Origin: Planctomycetota bacterium
GTDB lineage: Bacteria; Planctomycetota; PLA2; JAEUHO01
NCBI GenBank assembly: GCA_030066775.1
Contig: JASJAY010000050.1
Coordinates: 1 to 34,967 of the forward strand
Direction of reading: 5' to 3'
DNA length: 34,967 nucleotides
Below, piece by piece: positions 30,870 to 34,967 of this stretch. The notes beneath the pieces are model-generated. The model searched no databases, was not told the origin of the DNA, and was given only the letters and a program-made list of their open reading frames with translations. Position 1 is the stretch's first letter; every line of letters begins with the position of its first letter. The translations under genes were made by a program, and so were the position numbers.

Positions 30870-31256
30870 CTAGGCGTCGGCGATCTGTTTCGCCAGCGCC
30901 TCGAACTCGGCGGGCTCCATGTTCTTGCGCGGGGGCACCGGGTAGTCCGAGAGCTCCTGCGTGGGCACCAGGTGCACGTGCACGTGGGGGACCTCGTAGC
31001 CCACGACGTCGATCACCACGCGCTTCGCGCTCGTTGCCTTGCGCACCTTGGCCTCGACCGTCTTGACCGCCTTCCAGAGCGCCGCGTAGGCCGCGTCGTC
31101 CATATCGAAGAGGTAGTCGATCTCTTGCTTCGGAACGACGAGCGTGTGGCCGGGCTGCACGGGGTTGATGTCGAGGAAGGCGAAGTGGTGTTCGTCTTCC
31201 CACACCTTGTAGCTGGGGATCTCGCCCGCGATGATCTTCGAGAAGATGGTGCTCAT
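30870..31256 (-). CDS. HIT-family nucleotide hydrolase/transferase
   Basis: The product is 128 aa. The HIT motif HVHVHLVP carries the catalytic His, and the N-terminal FSKIIAGEIPSYKVWEDE and PVQPGHTLVVPK segments are typical of Hint/PKCI-like members. Such proteins hydrolyse AMP-linked phosphoramidates. It lies 62 bases downstream of the DUF2203 gene in the same direction, so the two probably share a transcript. Confidence 0.93.
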   Translation of the reverse strand: MSTIFSKIIAGEIPSYKVWEDEHHFAFLDINPVQPGHTLVVPKQEIDYLFDMDDAAYAALWKAVKTVEAKVRKATSAKRVVIDVVGYEVPHVHVHLVPTQELSDYPVPPRKNMEPAEFEALAKQIADA

Positions 31257-31318: not shown

Positions 31319-31753
31319 CTACGCGCCGGTGGGGATGAGCGCGCTCGGCACGGGCTTGCGCTCCGTGAAGCCGCAGTCGGCCGGATGCCAGTAGCCGACG
31401 GTCGTCTCGCCGAGACGCCACGAGAGGTACGCGGGCTCGCCGTCGATCAGCGCCGGGAAGTCGATCAGGCCGAGCTCCAGGTCACGCACCTCGATCGAGA
31501 GCGACGCCAGCTCTTCGAGGTAGCCCTCGATGCGACGCGAGTGGTCGCTCACCTCGTCCTTGAGCGCCTCGAGGCGCTTCGAGACGGCGAGACTGCCGGG
31601 GCCTTGCTGCTCGACCTCGAGCACGCGACGCTCGCGACCCGCCGTACGCAAGAGCCGGAAGTCGTCGACGATGTCCTTCACGATCGATCGAACGAGCGGG
31701 AGGACCCGGTTGGCTTCCTCGACTCCGTAAAGCGTGTGTGTCAGCGTTGCCAT
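31319..31753 (-). CDS. DUF2203-family protein
   Basis: The product is 144 aa. A long helical N-terminal part (ANRVLPLVRSIVKDI, about residues 13-30, then Arg/Glu-rich helices) is followed by the family's C-terminal core: LGLIDFPALIDGEPAYLSWR and VGYWHPADCGFTERKPV. DUF2203 proteins are widespread in bacteria and of unknown role. It is the first gene of a pair with the HIT protein. Confidence 0.85.
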   Translation of the reverse strand: MATLTHTLYGVEEANRVLPLVRSIVKDIVDDFRLLRTAGRERRVLEVEQQGPGSLAVSKRLEALKDEVSDHSRRIEGYLEELASLSIEVRDLELGLIDFPALIDGEPAYLSWRLGETTVGYWHPADCGFTERKPVPSALIPTGA

Positions 31754-31891: not shown

Positions 31892-32737
31892 TCACACGTC
31901 GAAATGGCCGTCGGCCTCTACGTGGGCGCCGTCCCAGACCACCTCGCGCAGCAGGTGTCGCGTGATCGCCACGGCGCCCATCGGCGTCGTCATCGGGCGC
32001 TGGGCAAAGGTCCCCAGGTGGATCGTCACGGTGCCGCCGTCCACGTGCGCGTCCTCGAGCGGCGCGCCCAGACTCTGGAGCACCTGCGCGGCGCGCGTCA
32101 GGGTGATGCGCTCCACGGGATGGCGATCGGGGTCGGGTGCGCGCGGCGCCTCGGCCAGCTCTTCGTCGATCAGCGCCAGCAGATCCGTGCGACACGAACG
32201 GCAGCCGGTGCATGCCTTGGCCGAGAGTCCGATGTCCTCGGGCGTGTGCGCACCCGCGTGGATGGCGGCACGGATGGTGCGATCGCCGACGCCGAGACAG
32301 CGACAGACGAGGATGCCCGCGCCCGTCGGATCGGCGGGGGCGCCGGCTTCGGCGTCGCCGAGCGCACGCCGCAACGCCTGCACGGCCATCTCCGTGCCGA
32401 GCCGGGCCCGCTCCGTCAACGTGTAGGACCCGCCCTGCGTCAGCCCGCGCTGGACGTCGTCGGACGAGATCGCGAGCGCCTCGTGTGTGGTCATGCCGTG
32501 CACCGCGCCCGTGATCCACGAGACGGCGGGGAGCGGCGCCGGCGTGCCGAACGCGCGCCCCTGGGCCGCCTCGATCACGGCGTCATCGCCCCGCTGGCCG
32601 AAGCGCAGCGTGATGCGCACGCCCAGGCCGCCCACCATGCTCCCGATCTCGCCCGCCGCGTGCGCATCCTCGACGTCGCCGAGGTTCTGCGGCTGCACGA
32701 GATGCTCGACGTAGGTGGGGGGCAGGTCGGGAAACAC
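31892..32737 (-). CDS. NifU-like three-domain protein lacking scaffold cysteines
   Basis: The product is 281 aa with a GTG start. The N-terminal domain (about 8-125) aligns with IscU/NifU (EHLVQPQNLGDVEDAHAAGE, GSMVGGLGVRITLRF), but the three cluster-binding cysteines are all absent. The middle domain (about 141-190) is a BFD-like 2Fe-2S domain with C145, C147, C179 and C182 in the CxC-x31-CxxC spacing, plus an extra C176. The C-terminal domain (about 208-275) resembles the NifU C-terminal scaffold (RAAQVLQSLGAPLEDAHVDGGTVTIHL), but its CxxC is replaced by RPMT. Thus only the ferredoxin-like domain can hold a cluster. It follows the FAD oxidase by 11 bases and may serve as its electron partner, which is inference. 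Confidence 0.87.
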   Translation of the reverse strand: MFPDLPPTYVEHLVQPQNLGDVEDAHAAGEIGSMVGGLGVRITLRFGQRGDDAVIEAAQGRAFGTPAPLPAVSWITGAVHGMTTHEALAISSDDVQRGLTQGGSYTLTERARLGTEMAVQALRRALGDAEAGAPADPTGAGILVCRCLGVGDRTIRAAIHAGAHTPEDIGLSAKACTGCRSCRTDLLALIDEELAEAPRAPDPDRHPVERITLTRAAQVLQSLGAPLEDAHVDGGTVTIHLGTFAQRPMTTPMGAVAITRHLLREVVWDGAHVEADGHFDV

Positions 32738-32748
32738 CGCGCCGCGTT

Positions 32749-34179
32749 CTACACGGCCGCGACGGGAGGCGGGATCTTCGCCTCGAAGACCTTGCCGGGG
32801 TTCAGGAGCCCCTTCGGGTCGAAGGCGTCCTTGATGCCCTTCATCACCCGCATGGCGACCGGATCGCGGCAGAGCTTCAGGTACCGGCTCTGCGCACAGC
32901 CCACGCCGTGTTCGCCCGTGATCGTCCCGCCGAGCGAGGTGGCGACGGCGAAGATCGCCTCGATCGCCGGGGTCAGCTTGCGCTCGCGTTCTTCCCGATC
33001 GGGGCTGTCGGTGAGCACGTTGACGTGGATGTTGCCGTCACCGGCGTGACCGTAGGAGATCTGGCGGATGCCGTACTCCGCGGCCACGCGGCGCACGCCG
33101 CGCAGGAGCTCGGGCACCGCGCTGGGTGGGACCGCGGTGTCGCACTCGACGTACGCGGCGACCTTCTTGGTGGCCTCACCCAGGCACCGGCGCACGCTCC
33201 AGAGCTCCTCTTCCTTGGCGGGCGTGTCCGCGAGCATCGCGTCGAGCGCACCGGCTTCCATCAGCACCTCGCCGACGCGCATGAGATCGCGATCCACGCT
33301 CTCCTCGTCGAAGCCGTCGACCTCGACCAGGATCTGGGCCTCCGCGTCCGAGTAAGGGACGGGCCGGCCGAGGTGCTCCTCGGCGGCCTCGAGCGCCGCC
33401 TTCTCGATGATCTCGAGCGTCGACGGCGTGATGCGCGACTTGTAGACGGCGACGATGGCGTTGGCCGCCGTGTCGAGGCTGTCGAACGCGGCGAGCAGCA
33501 CGCGCTTGTGGGCCGGCTTCGGGATCAGGCGCAGTGTCGCCTCCGTGACGATCGCGAGCGTGCCCTCGCTGCCCACGAGCAGCTGTCCGAGCTGGTAGCC
33601 GGCCACGTCCTTGCGCAGCTTGCCGCCCGTGCGGAACACGTCGCCGTTCGGGAGCACGGCCTCGAGCGAGAGCACGTAGTCCTTGGTGAGCCCGTACTTC
33701 ACGCAATGGGGGCCGCCGGCGTTCTCGGCGATGTTGCCGCCGATCTGGCACGAGCCCCAGCTGGCGGGATCCGGCGGGTAGTAGAGCCCGACCTCGCCCA
33801 CGGCTTCCTGCAGCACCTGGTTGATGACGCCGGGCTGCACGCGCGCCACGAGGTTCGCCTCGTCGATCTCGAGGATGTCGTTCATGCGCTCGACCGAGAG
33901 CACGATCCCCCCGAAGACGGGCAGCGCGCCGCCCGAGAGGCCCGTTCCGGCGCCGCGCGGCGTGACGGGGATGCCCGTCTCGTCGGAGAGGCGCATGACG
34001 GCCTGCACCTCGGCCGTCGTGCGCGGCTTCACGGCCACCTCGGCGCGGTACTGGAGGTCCTCCGTCTCGTCGCGGCCGTACACGGCGAGCTCGGGGTCCC
34101 GGTGGATCACGTTCGCGGCGCCCACGATGGTCTGGAGGCGTTCGACGATCTCGGGGGTTACGGGTGCGAATGTCTGCAT
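32749..34179 (-). CDS. FAD-linked oxidase, GlcD/D-lactate dehydrogenase type
   Basis: The product is 476 aa. The FAD-binding PCMH domain shows PRGAGTGLSGGALP and GSCQIGGNIAENAGGPHCVKYG; the C-terminal substrate-cap domain carries SYGHAGDGNIHVNVL and GTITGEHGVGCAQSRYL. These are GlcD/D-2-hydroxyacid dehydrogenase signatures, so it should oxidise glycolate, D-lactate or a related 2-hydroxyacid and pass electrons on. No glcE, glcF or other Fe-S subunit adjoins it. The ATG at 34179 begins the family start. The gene on its far side is divergent. Confidence 0.93.
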   Translation of the reverse strand: MQTFAPVTPEIVERLQTIVGAANVIHRDPELAVYGRDETEDLQYRAEVAVKPRTTAEVQAVMRLSDETGIPVTPRGAGTGLSGGALPVFGGIVLSVERMNDILEIDEANLVARVQPGVINQVLQEAVGEVGLYYPPDPASWGSCQIGGNIAENAGGPHCVKYGLTKDYVLSLEAVLPNGDVFRTGGKLRKDVAGYQLGQLLVGSEGTLAIVTEATLRLIPKPAHKRVLLAAFDSLDTAANAIVAVYKSRITPSTLEIIEKAALEAAEEHLGRPVPYSDAEAQILVEVDGFDEESVDRDLMRVGEVLMEAGALDAMLADTPAKEEELWSVRRCLGEATKKVAAYVECDTAVPPSAVPELLRGVRRVAAEYGIRQISYGHAGDGNIHVNVLTDSPDREERERKLTPAIEAIFAVATSLGGTITGEHGVGCAQSRYLKLCRDPVAMRVMKGIKDAFDPKGLLNPGKVFEAKIPPPVAAV

Positions 34180-34286: not shown

Positions 34287-34967
34287 ATGACGCGCGCCCT
34301 GTCGATCGGCCTGCTGCTGCTGACCGCCCTCTTGGGCGCACCGCCGGCGGCGGACGAGGAGGCCCCGGCGCCCGACGCCTTCGAGGCCGCGCTCGCCGCC
34401 ATGGGGATCGGCGCGGACGAGCTCGGCTACCGGCCCAAGGCCTCGTGGTCGCGGTACCCGCACCCCAAGACCGTGCCCTACGTGATGCCCTTCTTCGAGG
34501 ACCTGCTGGCGAACCCGCTCGACACCTACGTCTTTACCCGCACGCTCGGGAACGTCGTCGAGGACTGGCTCGACCCGGCGCTGCTCTCAGGCGCGCGCGT
34601 CGACGAGAAGAAGAAGGAGACGCTCTTCCAGCTCGGGGTCTTTCTCGCCACGGACCGCCGCATCGGCGGCTTCCGGGCCTACTCCGCGAACCTCGATCCG
34701 CGTCCGAGCAAGACCGATCCGCTCTTCCACGCGCTCGTGCGGCTGCTCGATCGGAGCGGGGCCGACCTCACCCGCGGCAAGACCTTCGGCCAGGCCGACG
34801 CCGACCCGGCCAAGGACCCCATGGCCGACCTGCGCGCGCAGGTGGACCGCGTGCCCAAGATCCTGCACCCCGGTCTCGCGACGCTCGTCCTGAACCTGAT
34901 CGACGCCAGGACGTGGATCGATCGGGGCTTGCGCGACGTGCCGCAGCGCATGCGCGACGACGTGTTC
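34287..34967 (+). CDS. Secreted protein of unknown function, cut by window edge
   Basis: The frame is open from the ATG at 34287 to the window end (227 visible residues). A signal peptide (LSIGLLLLTALLGAPPAAD) is followed by a polar region with PHPKTVPYVMPFFEDLLANP and a Lys/Glu-rich stretch (DEKKKETLFQLG). No domain is recognised. GGAG lies 9 bases before the ATG. Its 3-prime part lies outside the window. Confidence 0.75.
   Translation, partial: MTRALSIGLLLLTALLGAPPAADEEAPAPDAFEAALAAMGIGADELGYRPKASWSRYPHPKTVPYVMPFFEDLLANPLDTYVFTRTLGNVVEDWLDPALLSGARVDEKKKETLFQLGVFLATDRRIGGFRAYSANLDPRPSKTDPLFHALVRLLDRSGADLTRGKTFGQADADPAKDPMADLRAQVDRVPKILHPGLATLVLNLIDARTWIDRGLRDVPQRMRDDVF

Follow-up and report, generated by a model that had tools for sequence, protein, structure and literature searches.

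Among the closest described systems is the Fe-S scaffold NifU (TIGR02000), for whose permanent [2Fe-2S] cluster a role as electron source has been proposed (PMC8593673). The NifU-like protein studied here, encoded in a window of 34,967 nucleotides (the whole stretch of planctomycetal DNA that was analysed), has the same three-domain order and BFD ligands and is 26–27% identical to the Rahnella and Pantoea nifU products over residues 11–266, but it lacks the scaffold ligands, D37/H104 and the NFU CxxC, and its gene lies beside glcD rather than nifS. The IscU fold of its first domain is common to SufU and IscU, whereas here this domain is cysteine-less and fused to BFD and NFU-like domains, in a host that has its own SufU. 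The CxC...CxxC [2Fe-2S] domain also occurs in bacterioferritin-associated ferredoxin (Bfd), NirB and GlpA, though not, as here, embedded between two dead scaffold domains, and the proposed partner is a GlcD-type flavoprotein, unlike the bacterioferritin of Bfd or the DAO-type enzyme of GlpA. BFD domains are found in other FAD dehydrogenases, such as the GlpA-type G3P dehydrogenase (PMC10480196, PMC8491902) and hydroxyproline dehydrogenase (PMC6608401). With the GlcF/CCG-type subunits of glycolate oxidase, the protein may share the role of Fe-S partner of GlcD, but there is no sequence relation between them, GlcF having [4Fe-4S]/CCG centres and the window protein a [2Fe-2S]-type domain. Finally, the degenerated A-type domain of NfuA (PMC8593673) is likewise a carrier domain retained after ligand loss; its fold is different, however, and the NFU domain of NfuA is live, whereas in the window protein NFU is dead and BFD live.

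Pfam searches and alignment bore out the original prediction of a NifU-like protein without scaffold cysteines that keeps a 2Fe-2S domain (Table 1). NifU_N matched residues 10–126 (38.6 bits, cut-off 22) and Fer2_BFD matched residues 143–192 (49 bits, cut-off 26), the latter with all four ligand cysteines, as had been predicted. The only cysteines in the protein are C145, C147, C176, C179 and C182, all inside the BFD domain, and residues 1–144 contain none, in agreement with the predicted cysteine-free first domain. Ligand sites were read from an alignment with canonical planctomycetal NifU and the annotated nifU genes of Rahnella and Pantoea. At the positions of C35, D37, C61, H104 and C105 (numbering of canonical NifU L051), the window protein has G, L, T, L and G, respectively, and the NFU CxxC site reads A245-Q-R-P248. 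The loss of this CxxC had been predicted correctly, but its site had been placed at RPMT, two residues too late. The Pfam NFU model (PF01106) gave no match on the window protein, the C-terminal domain being too diverged for it. The family NFU-like profile did align with canonical NFU profiles (hhalign; probability 93%, E = 3e-7, 64 columns), and the tblastn alignment of the protein to annotated nifU of Rahnella, Pantoea and Serratia spans residues 11–266. The order NifU_N, BFD and NFU is present, its NFU part being recognised through the profile–profile comparison and the full-length nifU alignment. The protein scored 71.9 bits with TIGR02000, below the equivalog cut-off of 273.3. Because the features that define a NifU scaffold (three cysteines, D37/H104, the NFU CxxC and linkage to nifS or another desulfurase) were looked for and are all missing, the protein is not classed as one. 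The Pfam scan of the protein revealed no GlcF-type CCG or 4Fe-4S domains, and a plasmid search with it returned true nifU genes only.

Table 1 Coordinates of the NifU-like gene, its domains and its neighbours in the window.
Feature	Position	Strand	Basis
Scaffold-dead NifU-like protein	31892..32737	(-)	ORF, 281 aa, GTG start; AF2 pLDDT 94.3
IscU-like domain, residues 1-128, without cysteine	32354..32737	(-)	Pfam NifU_N; Foldseek
BFD-like [2Fe-2S] domain, residues 141-195	32153..32317	(-)	Pfam Fer2_BFD; ligands C145, C147, C179, C182
Degenerate NFU-like domain, residues 205-276	31910..32125	(-)	hhalign to canonical NFU; AF2
GlcD-type FAD dehydrogenase, 476 aa, probable partner	32749..34179	(-)	TIGR00387; adjacent in 11/11 f1 genomes
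DUF2203 protein, third gene of conserved cluster	31319..31753	(-)	PF09969, 103.8 bits
HIT-domain protein, often after cluster	30870..31256	(-)	Pfam HIT

The AlphaFold2 model of the window protein was very confident (mean pLDDT 94.3, pTM 0.89; 46 homologues). IscU structures were its top PDB matches, with TM-scores by target length mostly of 0.72–0.83 (Foldseek), and in the model the N-terminal domain keeps the IscU fold. The isolated C-terminal domain was also modelled with high confidence (pLDDT 93.9; 11 sequences) and has the order alpha-beta-beta-alpha-beta, but the fold search of this domain against the PDB returned nothing significant (best E = 0.05), NFU1 being among the non-significant matches (E = 0.16, TM 0.63). 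Its assignment to NFU rests, therefore, on the sequence profiles and the NifU layout. Together with the IscU fold matches, the profile comparison answers the concern, raised with the original prediction, that the domains might be unrelated to IscU and NFU.

Orthologues were sought in the uncultured family of Planctomycetota that holds the source organism (f1). The NifU-like gene was present in 11 f1 genomes, including that of the window; in a 12th (70% complete), glcD lies at a contig edge and the position of the NifU-like gene would be cut off. Every scaffold ligand was gone in 11/11 orthologues and the four BFD cysteines were invariant in 11/11, so the losses, shared by all members together with the BFD ligands, are not due to chance. 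No conserved Cys, Asp or His replacement was found in f1 at the three IscU positions or the CxxC. Scattered cysteines in the orthologues fall off the ligand positions, which, for this family, rules out misalignment or the shifted cysteines that had been considered. Where the first cysteine and the aspartate would lie, there is instead a new conserved motif, GEVGSMVGGxGVR. Mean pairwise identity across f1 was greatest in the BFD domain (66%), compared with 51% in the IscU-like and 43% in the NFU-like domain. The orthologues are 35–55% identical to the window protein, their frames are intact (11/11), and dN was lower than dS in each of the three domains in five close f1 pairs, with dS partly saturated. 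The gene is thus maintained under purifying selection and is not decaying; the intact frames and dN < dS rule out a pseudogene. Three f1 genomes (L091:5246-5620, L092 and L093) encode a further short IscU-like protein with the first two cysteines kept and the third replaced by Ala (KRHAL), which is neither a normal IscU nor a SufU.

The suggested positional tie to a GlcD-type gene held across the family. Neighbouring genes were read from stretches around the loci with a home-made gene caller, and glcD lay directly upstream of the NifU-like gene, on the same strand, in 11/11 f1 genomes. The gap was −4 to +44 bp in ten genomes (a 4-bp overlap in three) and 355 bp in one; in the window, glcD stops 11 bp before the NifU-like start. 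A DUF2203 gene followed in 10/11 genomes, so that the window gene is flanked by glcD and DUF2203, not by nifS or another desulfurase. The HIT-domain gene is probably an unrelated neighbour. The window GlcD scored 429 bits with TIGR00387, below the cut-off of 568, and its nearest solved structure is LctD (7qh2), which belongs to an ETF-linked lactate dehydrogenase. The pairing was observed in this one family: in f11 and f19, the stretches read around the related scaffold-dead genes showed no recognisable glcD, and f2, a sister family within the same order, has an equivalent glcD (44–48% identity), near folE in the loci read, without a NifU-like gene. The flavoenzyme can therefore work without the NifU-like protein. 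In two f2 genomes, another glcD, distinct from this one, occurs together with a GlcF-type Fe-S protein. CCG-domain proteins of the GlcF/YdiJ type were absent from 8/11 f1 genomes and present in three; that of the host adjoins a rubrerythrin-like gene and not glcD, and a GlcF encoded elsewhere that serves the f1 glcD was rejected on these grounds. Two further genes were seen around the cluster. Divergent from glcD is an f1-conserved gene whose product of ~700–800 aa begins much like a signal peptide and matches no Pfam family (window 34287-34967; L103:8345-10459), and in genus g4 a gene for a thioredoxin-like [2Fe-2S] ferredoxin, below the Pfam cut-off, lies close downstream (L105:2494-2847, L106:8580-8894).

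The host also has its own Fe-S assembly system. Contig C154 contains sufB, sufC, sufD, sufS, a sufU whose product has three cysteines and one more small gene of SUF type (sufB/D and sufU were identified by family searches, the other suf genes by reading the sequence). Since this SUF operon includes an intact SufU, the NifU-like protein is not the scaffold of the cell, and a role as sole scaffold was ruled out.

We classed 89 planctomycetal NifU_N-BFD proteins by the residues at their ligand columns. Three scaffold cysteines were found in 31/89, none or one in 58/89 and two in 0/89. The four BFD cysteines were kept in 58/58 cysteine-poor proteins, an outcome favoured by a detection profile that includes BFD; this conservation suggests that the BFD domain is what selection retains. 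SufB/D occurred with 50/58 cysteine-poor compared to 2/31 intact proteins (Fisher test, P = 6e-14, kinship uncontrolled). Of the eight cysteine-poor cases that lack SUF, a second NifU_N protein, IscU-sized and with a high score, was found in seven, while the eighth (G287, an incomplete genome) has a weak second match only; 57/58 thus have another way of assembling clusters, either SUF or a distinct IscU-like protein. The converse was not strict, as intact NifU and a separate IscU-like protein occur together in an f43 genome.

The phylum sample includes ten family-level groups with a cysteine-less IscU domain and an intact BFD domain; the original prediction of an unusual use of this fold was right but understated. 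All these proteins combine a chemically inert IscU fold with a live BFD centre, and several sub-types could be distinguished. In f23 a live NFU domain is kept and the gene adjoins a cysteine desulfurase, both features are lost in f11, and f1 keeps a dead NFU domain and is paired with glcD; no NFU-like domain with CxxC was found in f19, f28, f40, f47, f53 or f82. Part of f23 has a cysteine one residue past the lost third one. Trees set f23 apart from the other cysteine-less forms, and the best trees need two changes for these forms, but a single clade was not rejected (AU test, P = 0.10 and 0.12). In f40 the scaffold-dead NifU-BFD protein comes after iscX in an isc operon, and a Fer2 or Fer2-like gene lies right after hscA in five isc operons of other families. 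The f40 stretch (L082:57-7406) carries a complete iscS-iscU-iscA-hscB-hscA-iscX operon and then a 779-aa protein in which scaffold-dead NifU_N, BFD and a long, low-similarity C-terminal part are fused; no fdx was seen in the stretch. A scaffold-dead NifU-BFD protein at an isc operon where no fdx was seen suggests a ferredoxin role.

Other variants were encountered in the same survey. In f23 (L084-L087) no IscU-domain ligands are in place while BFD and the NFU CxxC are intact, directly beside the cysteine desulfurase gene, and this scaffold-dead NifU was the only NifU_N protein found in 4/5 f23 genomes checked. The reverse case, live IscU and BFD domains with a broken NFU CxxC (CIHN), occurs in a 2.1-Mb genome (L058, G230). 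In L134:249-882 (G205, f77) the match is confined to the BFD and NFU-like parts; the protein has no CxxC, and an IscU-like part was not matched. Very diverged NifU_N-BFD proteins occur in f28 (L129, L030, L135, L156), where in some matches a TGA lies in frame ahead of the matched end (frameshift, stop or match extension). In two genomes from one genus of f19, a PCO_ADO thiol-dioxygenase-like gene lies next to or near the scaffold-dead NifU-BFD gene (L080:3678-4223, L081:4422-4961).

The loss of the scaffold residues, the retention of BFD and the constant adjacency of glcD make a recycled electron-transfer or docking subunit the most likely explanation. Our preferred reading, held tentatively and at somewhat less than even odds, is that a former scaffold now serves the GlcD-type dehydrogenase as a ferredoxin-like subunit for electron transfer and docking. 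This descendant of NifU would have lost the ability to assemble or carry a transient Fe-S cluster, with SUF making the clusters of the cell. A permanent BFD [2Fe-2S] centre would sit between the ligand-free IscU-fold and NFU-fold domains, which would now provide structure and docking surfaces. We infer that the protein and the product of the upstream glcD, the GlcD-type flavoenzyme, would form a complex, and that electrons from D-lactate, glycolate or a similar 2-hydroxy acid would pass from the FAD of GlcD to the NifU-like protein and onward, the latter standing in for the Fe-S subunit GlcF. There is a rival acceptor for this electron transfer, as ETF, which GlcD-type enzymes can use (PMC9504171), was present in all 11 f1 genomes. 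Of the two roles originally suggested, carrier and regulator, nothing positive favours the second, and electron transfer or docking fits better.

A different, rather unlikely function is that of a ferredoxin for Fe-S assembly, in which the IscU-like domain docks on a desulfurase (SufS) and BFD electrons reduce sulfur, with GlcD as the electron source or unrelated. The retained IscU fold and the scaffold-dead relatives that lie beside a cysteine desulfurase (f23) or end an isc operon (f40) are consistent with it, as is the statement that it is not known what donates electrons to SufBC2D (PMC8593673), but the f1 gene adjoins glcD and not suf, which is on contig C154, and the rebuilt, invariant motif at the first cysteine and aspartate may not keep a desulfurase interface. 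Comparably unlikely is a maturation or stability factor of GlcD, either a chaperone-like docking partner or a redox/iron switch, with a structural or sensory cluster and electrons flowing to ETF. The presence of ETF throughout f1, the strict pairing and close spacing with glcD, and the precedent of NfuA, in which a degenerated non-ligating domain is retained in an Fe-S protein (PMC8593673), would all suit such a factor; against this, electron transfer is the simpler account of a strictly conserved redox-type [2Fe-2S] domain and of the absence of GlcF from most genomes. A cluster carrier, the other role in the original prediction, is improbable: NifU ancestry and the kept NFU-like domain speak for a labile cluster bound and delivered via non-cysteine ligands or a dimer interface, but the ligands for a transferable cluster are all gone, with no conserved Cys, Asp or His in their place. 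The very remote idea of a decaying, functionless relic hitch-hiking beside glcD, made redundant as a scaffold by SUF, is already largely refuted by conservation (11/11 intact frames, 35–55% identity, dN < dS in all domains, the invariant new motif) and the very confident fold.

The domains and folds described here are known; what is new relative to the literature searched is a scaffold-dead NifU that is kept for its BFD centre and locked to glcD. In that literature, which was without subscription journals and preprints, we found no description of a cysteine-less NifU in Planctomycetota, of a GlcD-BFD pair, or of a two-component GlcD-type dehydrogenase with a NifU-derived Fe-S subunit. Pipelines may label such proteins 'Fe-S scaffold NifU' and so count a non-functional NIF system. 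The electron-supply role of the NifU BFD cluster is proposed but unproven, and these dozens of proteins, with scaffold sites gone and the BFD cluster retained, form a natural separation-of-function series that shows the capacities of the BFD domain and IscU fold without scaffold chemistry. More speculatively, and with slightly less confidence than in the preferred reading for f1, where SUF or ISC took over, Planctomycetota may have turned NifU into a ferredoxin-like redox/docking family with an inert IscU fold, which in f1 would provide the Fe-S subunit for a GlcD-type dehydrogenase of two components. The proteins also suggest a hitherto unrecognised Fe-S partner for GlcD-type dehydrogenases.
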